Source: Blastococcus sp. LR1 (GTDB lineage: Bacteria > Actinomycetota > Actinomycetes > Mycobacteriales > Geodermatophilaceae). Taken from it: 64,000 bases of DNA. Every line of letters starts with the position of its first letter. The first letter of the stretch is position 1. The notes under the pieces were generated by a model. It saw nothing but the letters and a program-made list of their open reading frames with translations, was not told the DNA's origin and searched no databases. The stretch covers positions 682,001-746,000 of the forward strand of contig NZ_JAIUJY010000001.1 of NCBI RefSeq assembly GCF_020166105.1, given 5' to 3'. Shown here one piece after another: positions 13,707 to 17,950 of the stretch. Position numbers and translations under genes: made by a program.

Positions 13707-14279
13707 TCAGAGGAGGCCTCGTCCACCCGACCGGGTCCGACTGGGCCGGAGCTCGATGTCGACCGGCAGCTGCGGGTCGTCCAGAGCCTGGCGCATGTTG
13801 CTGACCAACCGGTCCTCCAGGGCCTGCCGGACCTCGGCGATGTCGGCGTAGTCGGTCAGGTCCACGGCAAGGGCGACCCGTCGACCCCCTCGGTCGAGCA
13901 CGTGCGCAGATGCCCCGGCAACGCCGCGCAGGCTCTCGGCCTCGGCCTCCACGGCATCGGCGAGCGCACTGGTGTGGACGGTTGTGAGTCCGTCGCGGTC
14001 GTCGGTGGTCAGCTCCAGGCGCCCGATCCGGTCTGTGTGCAGCTGGGCCAGCAGCCATCGGAGTCCGAGCAGGGCCAGCAGGAGGCAGACGGCGGCGACG
14101 GCCCACCAGAACCACGGCTGGTTCCGGGCGAAGTCGCGCACGGGCTGCGGCAGAACGGGCTGATCGCCATCGCCGAAGGCCCCAAAACCCAGGGCCAGCC
14201 CGAGCCCGCCGGCAGCGAGCAGGAGCAACCCCAGCAACGCCAGGATCGTGCGGTTGACGCCATTGACACGTGAGCTCAT
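13707..14279 (-). CDS. amaP: alkaline shock response membrane anchor protein (AmaP family)
   Basis: A 190-residue protein with two transmembrane helices (about residues 10-32 and 58-80) in the pattern RVNRTILALLGLLLLAAGGLGL and WFWWAVAAVCLLLALLGLRWLLA. A cytoplasmic alpha/beta domain follows (TTVHTSALADAVEAEAESL, RRVALAVDLTDYADIAEVRQAL). AmaP proteins hold Asp23 at the membrane. It overlaps the DUF6286 gene upstream by four bases (ATGA) and is the last gene of the operon. Confidence 0.88.
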   Translation of the reverse strand: MSSRVNGVNRTILALLGLLLLAAGGLGLALGFGAFGDGDQPVLPQPVRDFARNQPWFWWAVAAVCLLLALLGLRWLLAQLHTDRIGRLELTTDDRDGLTTVHTSALADAVEAEAESLRGVAGASAHVLDRGGRRVALAVDLTDYADIAEVRQALEDRLVSNMRQALDDPQLPVDIELRPSRTRSGGRGLL

Positions 14280-14806
14280 CGCGAGGACTTTCCAGAGACG
14301 GTGACGCGCGGACGGAGGACGTCGGACAGCCCGAGCTCGCCGAGCCGCTCGGTCACGGCTGCGGTGACCGGCTGCTGCAGCTCTTGCGGGGAGCGCATGG
14401 CGGTGGCTGCCTTCACCCGCACGATGCGACGTCCGGCCTTGGCGCTGGCGCTCTTCACGCCGTCAGCTCGACGCGCGGCGGTGGACAGGGATCGCTCGAT
14501 ACCGCGGCGCGAGGCGGTGACGCGGACCCCGTCGGTGCGACCCGGCAGGGTGAGAGAGCCGGGCTTGCCGCGGCGGAGGGCGACCACCAGCAGGAGCAGC
14601 CCGATGATGATCAGACCGATGAGGACGGCGCGGACGACGCCGTCGGTGAAGGACTGTTCACCCAGCCATGTGCTCCACATCGGGTGGGGGACCAGCGAGT
14701 ACGGACGCCCCAGGGCGGCCAGGACGATCTCCACGACGGCGAGGAGGCCGCCGAGGAGGAGCGCCAGCGCCAGCACCGTCGCGATGACCCGGTTCACGAT
14801 GGACAT
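14276..14806 (-). CDS. DUF6286 membrane protein, AmaP-like
   Basis: A 176-residue protein from ATG 14806, five bases after AAGGAG (a GTG at 14812 overlaps the ribosome site and is less likely). It has two transmembrane helices (about 5-30 and 58-80), then LRRGKPGSLTLPGRTDGVRVTASRRGIERSL and a basic alpha/beta domain resembling that of AmaP. The end overlaps amaP by four bases. It lies between an asp23-type gene and amaP, so it probably forms part of a membrane-bound Asp23 assembly. Molecular role unknown. Confidence 0.85.
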   Translation of the reverse strand: MSIVNRVIATVLALALLLGGLLAVVEIVLAALGRPYSLVPHPMWSTWLGEQSFTDGVVRAVLIGLIIIGLLLLVVALRRGKPGSLTLPGRTDGVRVTASRRGIERSLSTAARRADGVKSASAKAGRRIVRVKAATAMRSPQELQQPVTAAVTERLGELGLSDVLRPRVTVSGKSSR

Positions 14807-14831
14807 GGACACTCCTTGGTCGAGTCGGGGC

Positions 14832-15278
14832 TCACTGGACGCGTCGCCGATGGGCGGAGGGCGTGCTCAGGCTGACGACGTCGATGTCGACGTGGGCAAC
14901 CCGGACGCCGGTGATGTGCTCGACATCCTTGCGGACCCGCTCGCGCACCCGGCTGGCCACGGTGCGGACCGAGGCGGGCCAGCCGATCGCCACGGTCGCG
15001 TCGACCGTGGCGGTGTGCCCGTCGACGCGGGCGTCGACGGACGCCTCCTTGTCCGGGCGGGCGTCCCCGACGTTGATGCCGAGCACCCGGCGTGGAGCGG
15101 CGGTCGCACCCTCGACCTGCGTGACTGCATAGCCGGCGACTCGCTCGACGACACGGTCGGCGATCTCGAGGGTGCCCCGCTCGGCGGGGTCGCCGAGCTC
15201 CGGGAGGGCGGCGCCGTGTTCGTCCGGCCCGGAGGTGGCCTGCGGGCCATCGGGGGGAAGTGTGACGGCGCTGCTCAC
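14832..15278 (-). CDS. Asp23/Gls24-family envelope stress protein (third copy of the operon)
   Basis: A 148-residue protein. After 35 variable residues comes the Asp23 fold: IADRVVERVAGYAVTQVEGA, VDARVDGHTATVDATVAIGWP, then VRTVASRVRERVRKDVEHITGVRVAHVDIDV, which is the family's closing helix-strand. Asp23 proteins form a membrane-associated network under the cytoplasmic membrane through AmaP. It starts with GTG 15278, whose bases overlap the stop of the DUF2273 gene, so translation is coupled. Confidence 0.9.
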   Translation of the reverse strand: MSSAVTLPPDGPQATSGPDEHGAALPELGDPAERGTLEIADRVVERVAGYAVTQVEGATAAPRRVLGINVGDARPDKEASVDARVDGHTATVDATVAIGWPASVRTVASRVRERVRKDVEHITGVRVAHVDIDVVSLSTPSAHRRRVQ

Positions 15279-15454
15279 CGCGGACCGCGCCCACCGAGGT
15301 AGGGCGTGAGGTCGAGCTGACCGGACACCACCTTGCCGATCACGAAGCCGATGACACCGAGCACCGCGGTTCCGACGAAGGCGTCGAAGCCGCCGATGAC
15401 CCAGGCGAGACCGAGCAGCAGACCGGTGAACAGACCCACGACGGTGGGTGGCAT
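15275..15454 (-). CDS. DUF2273 small membrane protein
   Basis: A 59-residue protein, short and easily missed. It starts at ATG 15454 with GGAGG seven bases upstream. Two transmembrane helices are visible (TVVGLFTGLLLGLAWVIGG and FVGTAVLGVIGFVIGKVV), with the GLxxGLAWVIGGFxxF pattern of DUF2273. Genes of this family lie in asp23 operons of Gram-positive bacteria, and the products probably help anchor Asp23. The stop overlaps the GTG of the next gene (GTGA). Confidence 0.88.
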   Translation of the reverse strand: MPPTVVGLFTGLLLGLAWVIGGFDAFVGTAVLGVIGFVIGKVVSGQLDLTPYLGGRGPR

Positions 15455-15488: not shown

Positions 15489-15728
15489 TCAGACGACGCG
15501 CCGTGGTCTGCGGCGACGGTGGTACCAGGCTGCGATCCTGGCGAGACCCCGGGGCCGGCGGACGAAGCGGACGTCGTCCGCCGGCCGGGGGCCTGCTCTG
15601 CGGGCTCGCCCCTCGAGCTCCGCCATGACCCGGAGGAACTCGGACGGATCGCCCCCGAGGTCGGGATGGTGCGCGCGGAGCAGCGCCCGTCGTCGGCGAC
15701 GCTCCTCCGGGTCGGTGGTCTCAGGCAT
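15489..15728 (-). CDS. small J-domain-like protein with an HPD motif
   Basis: A 79-residue, very basic protein. Its first 45 residues read as the middle of a J-domain: an Arg-rich helix (EERRRRRALLRAHHPDLGG) carrying HPD, then the helix DPSEFLRVMAELEGRARR. HPD is the loop with which DnaJ proteins stimulate Hsp70 ATPase. The first J-domain helix is missing, so function as a co-chaperone is not certain. ATG 15728 overlaps the stop of the upstream Asp23-like gene (TGATG). The position inside an asp23 operon is unusual. Confidence 0.65.
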   Translation of the reverse strand: MPETTDPEERRRRRALLRAHHPDLGGDPSEFLRVMAELEGRARRAGPRPADDVRFVRRPRGLARIAAWYHRRRRPRRVV

Positions 15729-16105
15729 CAGGCCTGCGGAACCCCCACACCGGACGGCCCGGGGGGCAGGGCCGGCGGCTGTTCTTCGGGCAGCTGGAGG
15801 TCCGCGACGTGCACGTCTACCGGCTGTCCGGCCACGAGCGGCTCGACCGCGCGACGCACCTGGTCGGCGATCGCGATGATCGGAACGCCCTGGACGGCCA
15901 CGACCGACACCAGCACGCGGTTGGGTTCGATCCGCACCCCGTCGACCCGACGCCCCGGTAGGTATGTGGCGACGTTCCGCAGGCCGCTGCCGCGGGACAG
16001 CGACGCGACGGCGGGGCAGGCGACCGCGGCAGCGGCGATGGCGTCGGCAAGCTCGGCCTCCGACATCGCCGCGATCGCGGCCGAACCACTGGATGCTGAG
16101 GTCAC
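15728..16105 (-). CDS. divergent Asp23-like protein (second gene of the operon)
   Basis: A 125-residue protein with a reduced Asp23/Gls24 fold: the first helix ELADAIAAAAVACPAVASLSRG, the strands NVATYLPGRRVDGVRI and VLVSVVAVQGVPIIAIADQVRRAVEPLV, and the closing strand VDVHVADLQL. A Pro-rich tail follows. It starts at GTG 16105 overlapping the stop of the first asp23 gene (GTGA) and ends overlapping the HPD-protein start. It is probably another subunit of the Asp23 assembly. The family call rests on fold pattern and context. Confidence 0.75.
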   Translation of the reverse strand: MTSASSGSAAIAAMSEAELADAIAAAAVACPAVASLSRGSGLRNVATYLPGRRVDGVRIEPNRVLVSVVAVQGVPIIAIADQVRRAVEPLVAGQPVDVHVADLQLPEEQPPALPPGPSGVGVPQA

Positions 16106-16563
16106 TGGACCCGCGGAGGCTCCTGGGAGCCCTCGTCGTCGGACGGCAGGTGGATGTCGTTGACCGAGATGTTGACCTCGGTGACCTGCAGACCGGTCAT
16201 TCCCTCGACCGACGCGATGACGTTTCGCCGGACCGACCGGGCGACATCGGCGATGGGGGCGCCGTACTCGGTGACCAGGTCCAGGTCGACCGCTGCCTGC
16301 TTCTCCCCGACCTCGACCGAAACGCCCTGACCGGCCGACTGCGTGGCGCCCGGGATGCGCTCGCGGAGCGCGCCGAGGGTGCGTGCCGCGCCGCCGCCGA
16401 GAGCGTAGACGCCGGACACCTCGCGCGCAGCCAGGCCGGCGATCTTCTGGACGACGTTGTCGGCGACGGTGGTGGTGCCCTGGCTGGTCTGCAGAGCCGA
16501 CGGCGACGCCTGGGTGACCGCGCTCGACGACGCGGAGGTGCTGGAGCTCGGGGACTGCGTCAC
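16102..16563 (-). CDS. Asp23/Gls24-family envelope stress protein (first gene of the operon)
   Basis: A 153-residue protein. A Ser/Thr-rich 30-residue start is followed by the canonical family sequence: TTVADNVVQKIAGLAAREVSGVYALGGG, VSVEVGEKQAAVDLDLVTEYGAPIADVARSVRRNVIASVE and MTGLQVTEVNISVNDIHLP, here cited in pieces as fold landmarks. It heads a seven-gene minus-strand unit reaching amaP. Start GTG 16563 has AGAGG upstream. The motif GTTTACGACGT (16595-16605, minus) lies 32 bases before the start and may belong to its promoter. It is divergent from the ECF sigma gene. Confidence 0.93.
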   Translation of the reverse strand: MTQSPSSSTSASSSAVTQASPSALQTSQGTTTVADNVVQKIAGLAAREVSGVYALGGGAARTLGALRERIPGATQSAGQGVSVEVGEKQAAVDLDLVTEYGAPIADVARSVRRNVIASVEGMTGLQVTEVNISVNDIHLPSDDEGSQEPPRVQ

Positions 16564-16594
16564 TGGGTGACCTCTTCTTCCGTGATGGGAGATA

Positions 16595-16605
16595 ACGTCG
16601 TAAAC
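16595..16605 (-). promoter_or_regulatory. GTTTAC-GA-CGT motif upstream of the asp23 operon
   Basis: On the minus strand the sequence is GTTTACGACGT. It sits 32 bases upstream of the first asp23 start, close to the 36-base distance of the copy before the small stress gene at 13566. Candidate promoter or operator element; not tested. Confidence 0.4.
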
Positions 16606-16646
16606 CGACGGGCGGCCCGGTCGTGCCCTCGGGTCGCCGACTTACA

Positions 16647-16664
16647 CCAGTTGGACACAACTGG
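16647..16664. promoter_or_regulatory. inverted repeat between the asp23 operon and the sigma gene, candidate operator
   Basis: CCAGTTG-GACA-CAACTGG is a perfect seven-base inverted repeat with a four-base centre. It lies in the 158-base divergent region, 58 bases before the sigma gene start and 84 bases before the asp23 start. It is too short to be a terminator and is placed well for a dimeric regulator. Binding protein unknown. Confidence 0.4.
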
Positions 16665-16721
16665 ATGGGAAGGGTTACAGCAGATGGCGAAAAAAGCTCC
16701 GCGGAAGCGAGAGCTTCACCG

Positions 16722-17300
16722 GTGACCCGAGAGGCAGAGCCCGCCGCCGACCACACCAATCCGATGGAAGAGCACTGGGTCGCGCTGGCTGCGCAGGGCA
16801 ACGAGGACGCCTTCGCATCGCTCGTCCGCGCGCATCAAGACCGGCTCTACCGCGTGGCGCTGCGCCTGGTGGGGCATCCTGCAGACGCTCAGGAGGCCGT
16901 GCAGGAGTCCCTCCTGCAGGCTTGGCAGCACCTGGATGGCTTCCGCGGCGACGCGAAGTTCTCGACGTGGGTCACGCGCATTCTGATCAACCGCTGCCAC
17001 AACGTGCTGCGCGCTCGCAAGCTCACCGTCCCCCTGCCCGACGATCCGGGATCCGACCGTGGCCTGCCTCAGGCGCCGGCAACCGAGGACCTGGCCGTGC
17101 GTGCTCAGCGCAGGGACGCCGTCCGCGCCGCGGTGCTGTCGCTACCTTTCGACCAACGCGCGCCACTTGTCCTGACCGTCTTCGGCGGTTACACACACGC
17201 TGAAACGGGGCGCATTCTCGGCATCTCCGAGACAGCAGCCAAGGTGAGGGCGCATCGTGGACGCAAGACCCTGCTGTCCCGGCTCCAGGAATGGAGGTGA
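16722..17300 (+). CDS. ECF-type RNA polymerase sigma factor
   Basis: About 192 residues from GTG 16722 (open to 16623; ATG 16764 is also possible). Region 2 reads FASLVRAHQDRLYRVALRLV then DAQEAVQESLLQAWQHLDGFRGDAKFSTWVTRILINRC, with the DAxxxxQExxxxxW core-binding signature. Region 4 reads LPFDQRAPLVLTVFGGYTHAETGRILGISETAAKVRAHRGRKTLL, a normal HTH. It overlaps or abuts the next gene, whose product carries an anti-sigma-like HxxxCxxC motif joined to an Asp23 domain. Divergent from the asp23 operon, it likely directs that regulon; this is inference. Confidence 0.92.
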   Translation: MTREAEPAADHTNPMEEHWVALAAQGNEDAFASLVRAHQDRLYRVALRLVGHPADAQEAVQESLLQAWQHLDGFRGDAKFSTWVTRILINRCHNVLRARKLTVPLPDDPGSDRGLPQAPATEDLAVRAQRRDAVRAAVLSLPFDQRAPLVLTVFGGYTHAETGRILGISETAAKVRAHRGRKTLLSRLQEWR

Positions 17301-17305
17301 CTCCC

Positions 17306-17950
17306 GTGTCCCCGAGCAACAGAGCAGACGACGACCGCCTGCCCTGCGGCGTAGGCGTCGACGATCTGCTCACCCAGGTGGCCGAGCATGCTCACCCCCG
17401 TGACCCGGCACACCAACGCAGCTGTCCGCATTGCCGGGCCGCCCTGGCGGCGCTGGCCGACCTGTGGGCCCCCGTCACCGAACTGGCAGCGGAAGACGTC
17501 CGCGCACCGGCCAGCCTGCTGCAGGAAGTCATGGCACAGATCCGCGAACTGTCCCGCAACGCCTGGCACGCCGTCCTGACCGACCCGACCGGGCAGACCC
17601 GCATCGCGGCACGCGTCGTCGGCGCCGTCGCACGACTGGCCGCCGAGTCCGTTCCGCACGTCTCGGTCGCCCTCGGCAACGGTCGCCCCGAGACCCGGGC
17701 CGGACAGTCGCCCTCCCCCACCGAGATCGCCGGCGCCGCGGGAGAACCTGCCACCGACGTCGGAGTCGCGGGCTCGCACGTCATCATCGACGTCCAGATC
17801 GCCGTCGACTACGGCGTTCCCATCGCGCACGTCGCGCAGGCGGTTCGGAGCCGGATCATCGAGCACCTCGTGGCGCACACCGGGTTGACCACCAGCGAGG
17901 TGAACGTCATCGTCATCGACGTCCTCGCATCGCCTCCTACGGAGACCTAA
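17306..17950 (+). CDS. putative zinc anti-sigma motif fused to an Asp23/Gls24 domain
   Basis: About 214 residues. GTG 17306 has GGAGG seven bases upstream; ATG 17291 inside the sigma gene is an alternative. Residues 10-70 contain CGVGVDDLLTQVAEH and then HQRSCPHCRAAL, an HxxxCxxC zinc anti-sigma (ZAS) pattern, followed by a helix like those that wrap ECF sigma factors. Residues 95-210 form an Asp23 domain in two parts (IAARVVGAVARLAAESVPHVSV; VIIDVQIAVDYGVPIAHVAQAVRSRIIEHLV; LTTSEVNVIVIDV). There is no transmembrane segment, unlike most ECF anti-sigmas. It could tie sigma activity to the Asp23 membrane network. The domains are seen; the mechanism is inferred. Confidence 0.8.
   Translation: MSPSNRADDDRLPCGVGVDDLLTQVAEHAHPRDPAHQRSCPHCRAALAALADLWAPVTELAAEDVRAPASLLQEVMAQIRELSRNAWHAVLTDPTGQTRIAARVVGAVARLAAESVPHVSVALGNGRPETRAGQSPSPTEIAGAAGEPATDVGVAGSHVIIDVQIAVDYGVPIAHVAQAVRSRIIEHLVAHTGLTTSEVNVIVIDVLASPPTET

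Follow-up and report, generated by a model that had tools for sequence, protein, structure and literature searches.

The asp23 operon of Staphylococcus aureus is under the control of SigB. Its product Asp23 polymerises and is tethered by AmaP, and loss of either protein induces a wall-stress response (PMC6954212, passages on Asp23). In Streptomyces, an Asp23 gene is reported to fall after ethanol shock (PMC9769785, excerpt). Asp23 proteins have also been connected with extracytoplasmic function (ECF) sigma factors. Members of the groups ECF286 and ECF292 adjoin a soluble Asp23-family protein that is predicted to serve as anti-sigma factor (Casas-Pastor 2021 as cited in an excerpt of PMC8999054), and the same excerpt leaves the signal of the ECF groups beside Asp23 proteins undiscussed, data being scarce. 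Here, we describe a related locus from the soil actinobacterium Blastococcus sp. LR1. In the window, i.e. the entire analysed stretch of 64,000 nucleotides to which all coordinates refer, an ECF sigma factor gene is followed by a gene for a predicted anti-sigma factor composed of a zinc anti-sigma (ZAS) domain and an Asp23 domain, and the pair is divergent from an asp23-amaP operon. Compared by description, the window resembles ECF286 and ECF292 in combining an ECF sigma factor with an adjacent soluble Asp23-family protein, and this pairing as well as the predicted anti-sigma role of the Asp23 protein are already in print (PMC8999054, excerpt). New in the present study are a promoter-like element pointing toward the separate asp23 gene and the loss of the zinc bundle from partners that keep helix 4 and the Asp23 domain. 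The excerpt of PMC8999054 is silent on a zinc domain, on a promoter directed at asp23 and on forms devoid of zinc, some of which may be described in the classification paper itself. With a probability of roughly 60%, we propose that the sigma factor and its soluble anti-sigma factor form a pair in which the sigma factor would transcribe asp23-amaP and the Asp23 domain would read the Asp23 layer in a homeostatic fashion.

The sigma factor gene (16722–17300, plus strand) encodes Sigma70_r2 and Sigma70_r4_2 domains (Pfam, 8.9e-19 and 1.3e-13, respectively, on 16764–17297), and the best solved relative of its product is SigW (5wuq_A, E 1.4e-20), the partner of RsiW in the same complex. The likely start codon is GTG 16722, since an in-frame GTG is kept at this position or at most one codon away in the relatives L106, L107, L108 and L111 and the possible alternative, ATG 16764, is missing in L107, L108, L110, L114 and L116. 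A ribosome-binding-like sequence, GGAGGTGA (17293–17300, plus strand), overlaps the sigma stop codon TGA (17298–17300) and precedes the GTG start codon of the fusion gene at 17306, suggesting translational coupling of the two genes, which the original prediction had called coupled. The nearest named relatives come from Blastococcus strains (92% identity). The fusion gene (17306–17950, plus strand) codes for 214 amino acids. Its Asp23 domain (PF03780, residues 95–206, 17588–17923, plus strand, E 9.7e-12) scores 45.7 bits against a curated cut-off of 28, which places the protein in the Asp23 family. The maximal 19-residue hydropathy is 1.44 and, by this simple measure, the protein therefore has no membrane helix and is soluble. 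Both the motif HQRSCPHC (residues 36–43) in front of the Asp23 domain and the lack of a membrane helix agree with what had been noted from the sequence beforehand.

In a Pfam scan of the window fusion, the Asp23 domain was the sole match and the N-terminal part was not recognised as an anti-sigma domain. Profile comparison points to RsiW. H36, C40 and C43 of the motif and a fourth ligand-like residue, C14, form the pattern C..HxxxCxxC (17345–17434, plus strand), which is invariant in all 27 aligned rows. The profile derived from these 27 relatives, with C4, G5, H26, C30, H32, C33 and L61 as invariant positions, matched RsiW among solved structures (E 8.5e-6, profile positions 4–73 of 76). The alignment pairs the first Cys, HxxxCxxC and helix 4, and all four zinc ligands are matched. 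Weaker matches were 3hug_B (E 0.012) and DdvA (0.13), and unrelated chains appeared from 0.17 on. 3hug_B, presumably RslA, is another ECF partner and is annotated as a probable membrane protein. SigW and RsiW (5wuq) are the best solved relatives of both window proteins, sharing the four zinc-ligand positions and helix 4 with them. RsiW is a membrane protein that is cleaved on envelope stress, whereas the window protein is soluble and carries a C-terminal Asp23 domain. The AlphaFold model of the fusion shows the four expected helices (residues 18–26, 34–39, 41–62 and 69–84) followed by the alpha/beta Asp23 domain. Its predicted local distance difference test score (pLDDT) is 96–98 at residues 11–60 (helices 1–3) and about 83–87 at residues 61–80 (near 83 in helix 4); the overall values are 83.4 for pLDDT and 0.57 for the predicted template modelling score (pTM). 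Relation to a solved class I anti-sigma domain (ASDI), a three-helix bundle plus helix 4 (17510–17557, plus strand) and an adjoining ECF sigma factor gene are all found here, as set out for ASDIs in an excerpt of PMC7406223. Profile match and model thus support the N-terminal domain as an anti-sigma domain, as originally predicted.

The original prediction had pointed to a genome survey for the same fusion. Of 397 genomes from the order, 75 contain the N-terminal domain (E ≤ 1e-8), and 81 loci were read, the window and 80 further ones. In every one of them a sigma factor gene lies directly upstream at a distance of 5–104 bases. The C/H/C/C motif is likewise present in 81/81 loci, partly by construction as the search model itself holds the motif. 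A separate Asp23 gene occurs within the stretch (6 kb) at 76 of the 81 loci, divergent in 20 and in line in 56. Canonical Asp23 (best E ≤ 1e-20, a cut-off set by this analysis) was detected in 74 of the 75 genomes with the N-terminal domain versus 90 of the 322 genomes without it from the same draw (Fisher p 8e-33, kinship ignored). The genome G647 contains three sigma/anti-sigma pairs of this type (L121, L125 and L128) and eleven Asp23 matches. L167 (6153–6722) and L168, two loci that belong to other classes of the phylum, have a partner of 115 residues that consists of the anti-sigma domain alone. The gene that follows in L167 has a match to a mechanosensitive-channel helix (PF05552, E 4.1e-8), reminiscent of the mechanosensing complex of SigX to which the excerpt of PMC8999054 refers.

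Thirteen Geodermatophilaceae genomes have Asp23 but no match to the N-terminal domain. In six of them, a sigma factor gene adjoins asp23 and its partner is devoid of helices 1–2 and the zinc ligands. All six zinc-less partners retain a segment that resembles helix 4 by alignment and an Asp23-like domain. In a tree of the sigma factors, the zinc-less locus L190 shares a group (support 0.997) with L117 and L124, which bear the zinc bundle. The remaining five zinc-less loci cluster apart from it in a clade of their own (0.994) in the opposite half of the tree, and the precise placement of this clade is unsupported (0.0). As the zinc-less loci fall into two lineages, the zinc bundle reads as having been lost twice. 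Conservation of HxxxCxxC in homologues, on which the original prediction relied, thus extends to 81/81 bundle-bearing partners but is not universal, because six loci keep the sigma factor and an Asp23-domain partner after loss of the whole bundle.

A second line of evidence comes from a promoter-like element. Upstream of the sigma factor gene, many in-line loci contain CGTGACG and GTGTCC separated by about 15 bases. A weight matrix trained solely on 25 such sigma-upstream sites was used to scan 95 stretches (2.08 Mb with both strands summed), a score of at least 17 being counted as a hit. The 68 hits comprise 29 before sigma factor genes, 29 before separate canonical asp23 genes and 10 elsewhere. 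The sigma-side hits lie 20–420 bases upstream of the gene and include the 25 training sites, and the 29 asp23-side hits belong to 29 different loci. Stray hits occur at 4.8 per Mb, a rate at which the number expected before asp23 is well below one. The element precedes the separate canonical asp23 gene in 29 of 69 sigma-bearing loci (63 of the 81 and the six zinc-less loci) versus none of the 8 stretches, taken from 7 genomes, that lack the sigma factor gene, and 15 loci have it upstream of sigma as well as of asp23. For 17 of the 20 loci with divergent arrangement, the top-scoring hit is oriented toward asp23. In a test of the region upstream of asp23, p ≤ 0.05 was reached by 8 of the 19 divergent loci of the zinc type and by all 6 zinc-less loci, compared with a single one (L192, p 0.02) among the 8 sigma-less stretches. 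The corresponding Mann-Whitney p values, 0.005 when all sigma-bearing loci are taken together and 0.022 when only the zinc type is considered, are optimistic because the loci are related.

In the window, the candidate element TGTAACCCTTC-N10-GTGTCCAA (16651–16679, minus strand) is directed toward asp23, and its bases GTAAC, GTGTC and AA are invariant in 9/9 divergent relatives. Its −35-like half differs from the general element throughout the clade of the window. Loci of family f2 have a further different −35 half with an unchanged GTGTC half. A −35 half that varies between sigma clades next to a constant −10 half is as expected if the linked sigma factor reads the element. The link of the pair to the Asp23 genes, which had been proposed from gene order, is thereby supported further, and the DNA signals suggest that the sigma factor switches on the adjoining asp23 genes. 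The element is present as a single exact copy in the genome. The sole other near copy, with three mismatches, is located at C1:161387–161415 of G000 (L187), with a zf-HC2 gene (C1:161935) some 520 bases away.

Several observations weigh against the proposed circuit. As to the element, the score cut-off of 17 was fixed after the test scores on the divergent loci had been seen, and 40 of the 69 sigma-bearing loci with canonical asp23 stay below it. The window element scores 9.9 with the general matrix (p 0.03–0.04), those of L107, L110, L111 and L114 are not significant with it, and the element of the window clade rests on its own footprint, i.e. the bases conserved in divergent relatives, and not on the general matrix. 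Moreover, no sense-strand element was found upstream of the window's sigma factor gene. As to the partners, a fused Asp23 domain was recognised (E < 1e-3) in only 37 of the 81. The others are mostly shorter and diverged, five having fewer than 150 residues, and the 115-amino-acid partners in L167 and L168 are without an Asp23 domain. Finally, 5 of the 81 loci have no separate Asp23 within the stretch.

Domain content, homology to RsiW, coupling and linkage of the genes and the element can be seen in the sequences themselves; from these we infer the following circuit. The RsiW-like N-terminal domain would bind and inhibit the sigma factor mainly via helix 4, the zinc bundle would serve as scaffold, and the free sigma factor would transcribe the asp23-amaP operon. 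The Asp23 domain of the fusion would join, or be read by, the AmaP-tethered Asp23 layer under the membrane. As long as this layer is intact, the anti-sigma factor would remain competent. Loss or disturbance of the layer would release the sigma factor, and more Asp23 and AmaP would be made. The window operon likewise joins Asp23 with AmaP-type membrane proteins, and since S. aureus mounts its wall-stress response when Asp23 or AmaP is lost, the homeostatic sign of the loop is preferred with moderate confidence. The staphylococcal operon is controlled by SigB and not by a dedicated ECF pair whose anti-sigma factor contains an Asp23 domain, the arrangement predicted for the window. The same genetics, including the presence of the element before sigma as well as asp23 in 15 loci and the Asp23 domain in the anti-sigma factor, would also fit a loop of opposite sign, in which new or displaced Asp23 sequesters the anti-sigma factor by Asp23-Asp23 contacts so that the sigma factor is set free; the cell would thereby be committed to layer building by positive feedback. 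We consider this rather unlikely, as in S. aureus the loss of Asp23 or AmaP induces and does not silence the stress response (PMC6954212, passages on Asp23).

Zinc chemistry offers another possible input. Like RsrA and ChrR, the window protein is soluble and has an HxxxCxxC anti-sigma domain beside an ECF sigma factor. Anti-sigma factors of the soluble kind often contain zinc and are tied to redox sensing (PMC7406223, excerpt). The ligands C14, H36, C40 and C43 are present in the window, and C, H, C and C occur in all 81 bundle-bearing partners, a set picked by a motif-holding model. The CxnHxxxCxxC centre might thus sense thiol or oxidative stress and free the sigma factor, the Asp23 domain being a mere stabiliser or localiser. 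Such a role is improbable. Unlike RsrA and ChrR, the window type has Asp23 as its second domain and can lose the zinc bundle, the site being absent from six sigma-linked partners that retain helix 4 and the Asp23 domain. Furthermore, RsiW, the nearest match, binds its sigma factor independently of zinc (PMC7406223, excerpt). Because helix 4 and the Asp23 domain outlast the zinc bundle, sensing of the Asp23 state is favoured over redox sensing by zinc. Very unlikely, finally, is a fusion protein that acts as a subunit of the Asp23 layer or as a sigma co-activator and is coupled to the sigma factor gene incidentally: although the open literature searched reports no inhibition for any member and zinc-less forms retain only part of the anti-sigma domain, the full-length RsiW profile match, the sigma linkage in 81/81 loci and the published classification (PMC8999054, excerpt), which likewise predicts an anti-sigma role, speak against it.

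The divergent operon on the minus strand begins 159 bases from the sigma start. Its first gene is the canonical asp23 (16102–16563, PF03780 7.5e-30), followed by a weak Asp23-like gene (15728–16150, PF03780 E 0.099, below cut-off) with relatives in 49 of 94 stretches and a gene for a 79-amino-acid protein (15489–15728) that has no Pfam match and relatives in 38 of the 94 stretches. The HPD motif of the latter resembles the middle of a J-domain. Further downstream are genes for a DUF2273-like small membrane protein (15275–15454, PF10031), a second Asp23 (14832–15278, PF03780 1.1e-14), an AmaP/DUF6286-type membrane protein (14276–14812, DUF6286 1.2e-22; AmaP model 2.1e-11, below cut-off) and an AmaP-type membrane protein (13707–14279, AmaP model NF033218 1.7e-17, above cut-off). 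The Asp23 and AmaP assignments made for this operon in the original prediction were confirmed, whereas the DUF2273 match is weak (E 0.029, below cut-off). All three Asp23 matches of the whole genome at E ≤ 0.001 are at this locus. Overall, the original prediction, in which the Asp23 network holds or exchanges a soluble anti-sigma factor and envelope damage would free the sigma factor, gained partial support, namely for the identity of the anti-sigma factor and its link to the Asp23 genes but not for the universality of HxxxCxxC.

The molecular role of Asp23 is described as still unclear (PMC6954212, passages on Asp23), and the open literature collection searched contained no experimental study of such a sigma/Asp23-type pair. 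Tentatively, the pair may be viewed as a self-measuring regulator, in which the sigma factor calls for production of the Asp23 subunit, a copy of this subunit is built into its anti-sigma factor and the assembled Asp23 layer is the signal. Instead of sensing redox state or acting as a receptor across the membrane, the pair would then gauge a protein layer inside the cell. The role of Asp23 and the signal of the Asp23-linked ECF groups thereby merge into one question, namely whether the state of the layer sets the activity of the sigma factor and whether the sigma factor makes the layer, and the two zinc-less lineages are natural variants that could serve to separate the zinc site from the Asp23 domain.
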